Origin: Campylorhamphus procurvoides
Lineage: Eukaryota > Chordata > Aves > Passeriformes > Dendrocolaptidae
DNA: 64,000 nucleotides
Direction: 5' to 3'
Assembly (NCBI GenBank): GCA_013396655.1
Contig: WBMV01004379.1
Span: 222,523 to 286,522, forward strand
The notes under the pieces are model-generated. The model was given only the letters and a program-made list of their open reading frames with translations. It did not search any database and was not told where the DNA came from. Each line of letters opens with the position of its first letter. Within the stretch, counting starts at the first letter, position 1. The position numbers were made by a program, and so were the translations under genes. Of the stretch, positions 45,031 through 45,732 are shown piece after piece.

Positions 45031-45732
45031 ATGGGCGAGGCGGAGCGGGGCTCAGAGCGGGGCGAGCCGCAGAAACCCCCCTACTCCTACGTGGCTCTCA
45101 TCACCATGGCCATCCGCGCCAGCCCCGAGCAGCGCCTGCCCCTCAGCGCCATCTACTCCTACATCGCCGAGCGCTTCCCCTACTACCGCGGCTGCCCCCG
45201 GGGCTGGCAGAACAGCGTGCGCCACAACCTCAGCCTCAACCCCTGCTTCCAGCGCCTGCCCCGCCGCGCCGGCCGCGGGGGCGACTGGGCGCTGCACCCC
45301 TCCTTCCACGACATGTTCCCGGAGGGGGATTATCGCCGCCGCCGCCGCCGCCGCCCCCTCGGCCCTCCCGCACCACCAGCAGCATCACCAGCATCCGCAC
45401 CAGCATCCTCAGCATCGGCACCAGCAGCACCAGCGTCCGCACCAGCATCATCAGCACCCGCAGCATCCCCGCTGCCCGCCGCGCCCTGGCCGCTGCCACC
45501 GCTGCCACCGCCGCCCCCTCCGCCCGTGGCGGTGCCCCCGCTGCCCGCAGGGTGCCCGCACGGGCCCTGGGCAGCTCTGGCGCTGCCCCGCGCCTTCCTC
45601 TGCCCGGAGCTGCCCGGCTGGGGCTCCCCTGCCTTCCCGGGGGCCCCGCACGGCATCCCCGCCTGGCCCGGCGCGCTGGATGCGGGCATGCCCTGCGAGA
45701 TGGGAGCCAGGCCGGCCCCCGCCTTCAGGTGA
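45031..45732 (+). CDS. Divergent single-exon forkhead (Fox) transcription factor
   Basis: A 233-residue frame with a forkhead DNA-binding domain at about residues 15-101, beginning KPPYSYVALITMAI. The recognition helix WQNSVRHNLSLN (59-70) keeps the contact residues Asn, Arg, His and Ser. The wing region is unusual: the usual GKGNYW-type motif reads GRGGDW, and a proline follows LSLN. Seven arginines (102-108, from a CGC run) form a basic end, then comes a low-complexity Ala/Ser/Pro tail. I chose the ATG in GCCATGG (good Kozak context); the frame stays open upstream to 44830. SPEQRLPLSAIY and WALHPS resemble FoxB, ERFPYYR and PRRAGR resemble FoxE, and DYRRRRR resembles FoxL, so no subfamily is given. 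The final AGGTGA is either a stop codon or a splice donor; the assembly is damaged just beyond. Confidence 0.85.
   Translation: MGEAERGSERGEPQKPPYSYVALITMAIRASPEQRLPLSAIYSYIAERFPYYRGCPRGWQNSVRHNLSLNPCFQRLPRRAGRGGDWALHPSFHDMFPEGDYRRRRRRRPLGPPAPPAASPASAPASSASAPAAPASAPASSAPAASPLPAAPWPLPPLPPPPPPPVAVPPLPAGCPHGPWAALALPRAFLCPELPGWGSPAFPGAPHGIPAWPGALDAGMPCEMGARPAPAFR
45334..45354 (+). repeat. (CGC)7 trinucleotide run coding poly-Arg
   Basis: Seven CGC codons at the end of the forkhead domain encode Arg102-Arg108. Basic residues here are normal for nuclear import and DNA backbone contact, but the pure codon run could vary in length. Confidence 0.9.
45366..45475 (+). repeat. Irregular CAGCA/CAGCATC repeat coding an Ala/Ser/Pro-rich tail
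   Basis: Units such as CCAGCATC and CACCAGCA recur and encode PASAPASSASAPAAP-type sequence. This is simple-sequence expansion inside the gene; its length may be unstable. Confidence 0.75.

Follow-up and report, generated by a model that had tools for sequence, protein, structure and literature searches.

FOXL2 is a forkhead gene with a somatic role in the ovary. Its sister gene FOXL2L, called foxl3 or foxl2l in teleosts, has been described from the germ line of fish: zebrafish that carry foxl2l mutations all become fertile males, their germ cells halting at progenitor commitment (PMC12289312), and medaka foxl3 is described as acting in germ cells on the choice between sperm and egg. Another paper already records foxl2l in a turtle, a caecilian and the manakin Chiroxiphia lanceolata, lists pik3cb/pik3cd, rbp2/rbp7, nmnat3/nmnat1 and clstn2/clstn1 around foxl2/foxl2l, and places tmem201 next to foxl2l (PMC10606028). 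Here we analysed a stretch of 64,000 nucleotides from Campylorhamphus procurvoides (the window; C1204:222523-286522 of the 1.02 Gb source genome G000), which carries a forkhead frame at 45031-45732. This frame is almost certainly the passerine orthologue of FOXL2L, which arose as the sister of FOXL2 in the two rounds (2R) of genome duplication early in vertebrate history. The orthologue is thus already known; it is intact, turned up a single time in its own genome, and has been obscured by wrong names and fast evolution.

An intact forkhead frame

The features of the gene are as follows (positions are those of the window).

45031..45732, + strand: FOXL2L coding frame, 233 codons plus TGA, from translation, homologues and one place in the own genome
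45070..45318, + strand: forkhead DNA-binding domain (residues 14-96), from Pfam, structure-model confidence and PDB matches
45205..45240, + strand: recognition helix WQNSVRHNLSLN, with a core invariant in 68 proteins
45250..45288, + strand: shortened wing-1 stretch ending GRGGDW, from CF-to-W residue counts
45337..45535 (approximate), + strand: low-complexity arginine, then proline/alanine/serine stretch, of varying length among birds, from sequence comparison
45536..45729 (start approximate), + strand: C-terminal tail, in frame in many birds (CPHGPWAAL...CPELPGW...F[K/R/Q/P]-stop)
45726..45734, + strand: donor-like CAG/GTGAGC, cut between CAG and GTGAGC, overlapping the stop codon and probably incidental

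Translation from ATG to TGA was uninterrupted and gave 233 residues, and Pfam Forkhead (PF00250) matched residues 14-96 with an expectation value (E) of 1.3e-32, in agreement with the intact frame described in an earlier note on this DNA. In the structure model the predicted local distance difference test (pLDDT) score was above 90 across most of the domain. Many other bird proteins begin with MGEA or MGDA, which backs the ATG at 45031; the frame stays open upstream as far as 44821, with a further in-frame ATG. A search of NCBIfam returned nothing for any of five proteins. Compared with its own genome, the window protein matched exactly at a single place. The best of the 29 weaker matches listed was FOXL2 (L002, E = 2.5e-35), and no second FOXL2L copy was found among the 30 matches listed, for which only the best candidates were scored.

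For comparison among birds we used 59 proteins (22 passerine, 37 other), that is, the window protein and 58 fetched ones, leaving out P0035, P0051 and P0054; passerine status follows the species names, and P0015 and P0053, which carry no species name, were grouped with the non-passerines by likeness. The proteins end in F[K/R/Q/P] in 34 of the 59 cases, and many others are partial records. A second coding exon is unlikely because, with this common ending, the bases before the GT would vary and often make poor donors, an argument built on protein ends and not on DNA; we therefore infer a single-exon gene. The question of such an exon arose from the position of the TGA within the donor-like CAG/GTGAGC and from an acceptor-like CTTTTCTTCCAG at 46170. 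Shortly 3' of the stop there is also an N at 45778, adjoined at 45779-46022 by 6.3 copies of a 39-bp unit at 100% identity.

Homologues, phylogeny and genomic position

The window protein had 243 database matches, and the best 120 were headed by birds, followed by turtles, squamates, marsupials, amphibians and teleosts, interspersed with true FOXL2. Closest among the matches listed was a protein of another woodcreeper, Xiphorhynchus elegans (97% across the domain), and the bird matches carried discordant database names (E3-like, L1, D4-like, L2-like, D3-like). Searches with turtle and marsupial queries added tuatara, coelacanth, lungfish, gar, bowfin, eel and cartilaginous fishes. The three listings held the best 120 of 243, of 6412 and of 1923 matches, and the listed sequences were read in part. 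FOXL2L rows were found in lungfish, frogs, caecilians, tuatara, squamates, turtles, about 60 bird records, two New World quails among the birds, and five marsupials, mostly misnamed or nameless (E3-like, L2-like, D4-like, L1, uncharacterized). These rows contradict two published statements of loss, namely that the egg/sperm germ-cell switch gene was lost in terrestrial vertebrates, as a 2022 review has it (PMC9490121), and that it was possibly lost in the lungfish-tetrapod (rhipidistian) ancestor, as a 2020 paper suggests (PMC7096497). The earlier note had proposed an ancient paralogue lost in mammals or, alternatively, a bird-specific copy. Orthologues from cartilaginous fishes to marsupials show the latter to be wrong, and the five marsupial proteins leave at most part of the mammalian loss standing: by name, no eutherian, monotreme, crocodilian or Gallus FOXL2L occurred among the matches listed, which does not imply loss. 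Four database proteins (P0125, P0129, P0132, P0137) fuse two adjacent FOX genes (FOXC-FOXL1, FOXE-FOXD, FOXQ1-FOXC) and are likely gene-model artefacts.

The tree was built from 77 forkhead domains over 109 columns, comprising the window protein, 43 candidates, 12 FOXL2 rows (one from the own genome) and, for other subfamilies, 21 rows taken from the own genome, from databases and, in four cases, from known reference proteins. All 44 FOXL2L rows, from cartilaginous fishes to birds, formed one clade (support 100/97, starred) within a group of FOXL2 and FOXL2L (100/99, starred). After removal of five rows (FOXJ1, L018, L008, the lamprey FOXQ1 part and Varanus) the clade had 94/92 (not starred) and the group 100/97 (starred). 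In approximately unbiased (AU) tests the 19 bird rows were forced into union with other groups, FOXB being included in the first set only and FOXQ2 being absent from the reduced one. Union with FOXE (p 0.014 with 77 rows, 0.0017 in the reduced set), FOXB (0.003 with 77 rows) and FOXL1 (0.029 and 0.015) was rejected. The view that the gene fits no subfamily cleanly has thus met the outcome that its own proponent had named first as contrary to it. The domain is short, and the tree by itself is not the full case for FOXL2L.

Sequence marks point the same way. LxPxF is present in the window protein, and its F occurs in 22/22 passerine, 35/37 other bird, 8/8 turtle, 8/10 squamate, 4/5 marsupial and 15/16 fish rows. 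FPYY was found in 10 of the 22 passerines, the window protein included, in 35/37 other birds (two not parsed) and in 14/16 fish rows. All 12 FOXL2 rows have FPFY and LDPxC, the cysteine of which is also seen in one squamate and one marsupial FOXL2L row.

Genomic position was examined by tblastn with human proteins, which placed the following neighbours in the window.

4364..12639, + strand: SLC25A33 exon matches
22866..39807, + strand: TMEM201 exon matches, the upstream neighbour of FOXL2L

A search for PIK3CD at E up to 1 recovered none of its coding exons within the window and just two scattered fragments (E 0.11, 26-32% identical). The first PIK3CD coding match lies at C1204:294626, 8.1 kb beyond the window, and shares contig and strand with FOXL2L, so that the position between TMEM201 and PIK3CD given in the earlier note holds. 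Along C1204 the order is FOXL2L (267.6 kb), PIK3CD kinase exons (306.5-309.2 kb) and CLSTN1 (315.5-319.2 kb); along C870 it is CLSTN2 (2.037-2.044 Mb), FOXL2 (2.692 Mb) and PIK3CB (2.794-2.803 Mb), where the labels CLSTN1/2 and PIK3CB are our interpretation of sequence matches. The window gene therefore occupies the place beside TMEM201 and PIK3CD that is paralogous to that of FOXL2 and PIK3CB. The signature of FOXL2 itself, a place with PIK3CB and CLSTN2 together with LDPxC and FPFY, is absent from it, and the true FOXL2 is L002 on C870. The proposal of an ancient Fox paralogue is borne out by the tree, by the paralogon and by PMC10606028, the gene and its sister FOXL2 going back to the genome duplications of early vertebrates.

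Some results weigh against this placement. Union with FOXQ2, represented by one very long row in the 77-row set, was not rejected (AU p 0.078), and neither was a bird-specific FOXL2 copy with 77 rows (p 0.051). FPYY is no strict mark, as 12/22 passerine and 2/16 fish rows have FPFY, and the F of LxPxF is missing from a small number of rows of squamates, marsupials, frogs and birds. A query for the NMNAT members of the paralogon gave no match on C1204 or C870.

The FOXQ2 result bears on the idea that the gene belongs to another subfamily (FOXE, FOXB, FOXL1 or FOXQ2) at an unusual place, as do the database names E3-like, L1 and D4-like and the ALHP motif, which is as in FOXB. The window protein also has GDYRRRR, which we take to resemble FOXQ2 and which gave FOXQ2 as a first guess; that guess was dropped when a separate FOXQ2-like gene (L008) turned up in the own genome. 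With the AU rejections given above, with separate FOXE-like (L011) and FOXQ2-like genes in the own genome (both names being our reading of the sequences), this idea has scarcely any chance of being right. A literature search found no foxq2-pik3cd association.

A bird-specific, fast-evolving duplicate of FOXL2 could account for the long branch leading to birds and for the best PDB match by sequence, which is FOXL2 (7vou). However, in the tree the window protein falls together with FOXL2L of fish, coelacanth, turtle and marsupials, the AU test rejects the duplicate in the reduced set (p 0.0008), and the gene lies with PIK3CD and CLSTN1, whereas FOXL2 lies with PIK3CB and CLSTN2. We regard such a duplicate as very improbable and close to refuted.

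Several observations were made alongside. The own FOXL2 (L002, G000:C870:2691893-2692369) has the recognition helix HNLCLNECF, with S replaced by C, where the other FOXL2 rows read have HNLSLNECF; this is either a real change or an assembly error. A third calsyntenin is found on C2557. Two identical FOXG1-like domains, L006/L007, stand 1.15 kb apart at G000:C1441:20613-22072, perhaps through assembly duplication. Within the window, 47521-47800 is a tandem array of 7.4 copies of a 37-bp unit, and Rfam gave one weak tRNA match at 38181-38243, away from FOXL2L.

Divergence of the bird proteins

As the earlier note supposed, FOXL2L evolves fast in birds, and faster than FOXL2. Domain identity of the woodcreeper FOXL2L was 83% with goose, 87% with kakapo, 88% with pigeon, 73% with turtle, 70% with tuatara and 60% with lungfish, against 99, 99, 99, 99, 99 and 97% for comparable FOXL2 pairs, in which the waterfowl and turtle species differ from those used for FOXL2L.

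The recognition helix WQNSVRHNLSLN, the proline after it and GRGGDW are all as first described. W59, N61, S62, R64, H65 and L67-N70 are invariant across 68 chosen family proteins. The proline after LSLN occurs in 55/59 bird proteins (18/22 passerine, 37/37 other), and histidine for aspartate (LHP) in 3/22 passerines and 0/37 other birds. From CF to W there are 12 residues in 22/22 passerines and 15-23 in the 37 other birds. The count is 15 in 8/8 turtles, 16/16 fish, the one tuatara and 12/12 FOXL2. Ten squamates have 14 or 15 residues and five marsupials 19, while two caecilians and two of the three frogs have 12 or 13, the remaining frog being unparsed. The short wing stretch is thus passerine-wide among birds, yet it is also found outside passerines. 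KGSD or KGHD stands here in several rows from turtles and geckos, and GRGGDW is therefore the passerine form of a wing already altered in sauropsids. Passerine-wide shortening is unmentioned in the FOXL2L literature drawn on, for which no dedicated search was made.

Behind the domain, a 21-bp tandem unit lies within the low-complexity part, at 45380-45462. A PELPGW-like motif was present in 36 of the 59 bird proteins by a loose pattern, the match in P0062 being plainly chance.

These features could indicate that FOXL2L is losing function in passerines, with an open frame under relaxed constraint and a wing deletion that weakens DNA binding. The identities of 83-88% to other birds, against 99% for FOXL2, would fit, as would the 12-residue wing stretch of every passerine, the histidine in ALHP and the low-complexity tail. 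Decay is unlikely because the frame and the tail, which returns in frame after a stretch of variable length, are kept in many birds; moreover, the core of the recognition helix is invariant, some amphibians and squamates likewise have a short wing stretch, of 12-14 residues, and germ-cell expression in zebra finch has been reported. Frame-breaking decay was not seen in relatives, judged from protein records only, where gene models favour open frames. We consider this loss improbable.

Germ-cell role and comparison with known genes

We favour the explanation that passerine FOXL2L, at its conserved place between TMEM201 and PIK3CD, would give a nuclear transcription factor whose forkhead domain is predicted to read forkhead sites through the unchanged recognition helix. 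By orthology, its place of action would be the germ cells, both progenitors and oogonia, where it would promote oogenesis and restrain the male programme. As a whole this explanation is very likely. The germ-cell role taken separately is somewhat favoured; expression in the germ cells of Campylorhamphus procurvoides and a role in egg fate would follow from the orthologues. Counting against it, the short wing together with rapid change could mean altered binding, and a role favouring oogenesis is doubted for chicken.

According to a review, FOXL2L is strongly expressed by one of the germ-cell populations of zebra finch (PMC12650572). A turtle gonad study lists among its network genes a foxl3 that may be FOXL2L (PMC9219891). 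The chicken 'FOXL3-like' gene is probably the same gene as the window FOXL2L. Ichikawa 2019 reportedly found it in female germ cells, according to two citing papers, and Biegler 2025 is said to be the study behind the zebra finch population rich in FOXL2L. A further FOX exon in the woodcreeper genome, L018 (G000:C1920, about 83.5-83.7 kb; AIQQSPSNKVTLSGIYDFIMKKFPYYRSNQRAWQNS), has a seemingly intron-bounded frame and, as a long tree row, no trustworthy place. It is perhaps the gene that HGNC calls FOXL3, and it could blur which gene 'chicken FOXL3-like' denotes.

A more speculative and rather doubtful proposal is that FOXL2L lost part of wing 1 at the base of the passerines and was retuned, giving a changed egg/sperm factor in germ cells across the songbird order. 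If this were true, the zebra finch population rich in FOXL2L would be its readout, a two-population picture said not to hold in chicken. Correct naming would make germ-cell data of birds, reptiles and marsupials readable for an intrinsic egg/sperm factor.

Compared with the described FOXL2L genes (teleost foxl3/foxl2l and the foxl2l of turtle, caecilian, gar and elephant shark), the woodcreeper gene shares the clade, LxPxF, FPYY, the TMEM201/PIK3CD place and the one copy found. It differs from FOXL2L of fish and turtle in a wing stretch three residues shorter, which reads GRGGDW, and from these described genes in the proline after LSLN and the proline/alanine tail, and its C-terminus is not clearly alignable with that of fish. 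With FOXL2 it shares sisterhood, the fold and the best solved-structure match by sequence, whereas FOXL2 lies with PIK3CB and CLSTN2, evolves slowly and carries FPFY and LDPxC.
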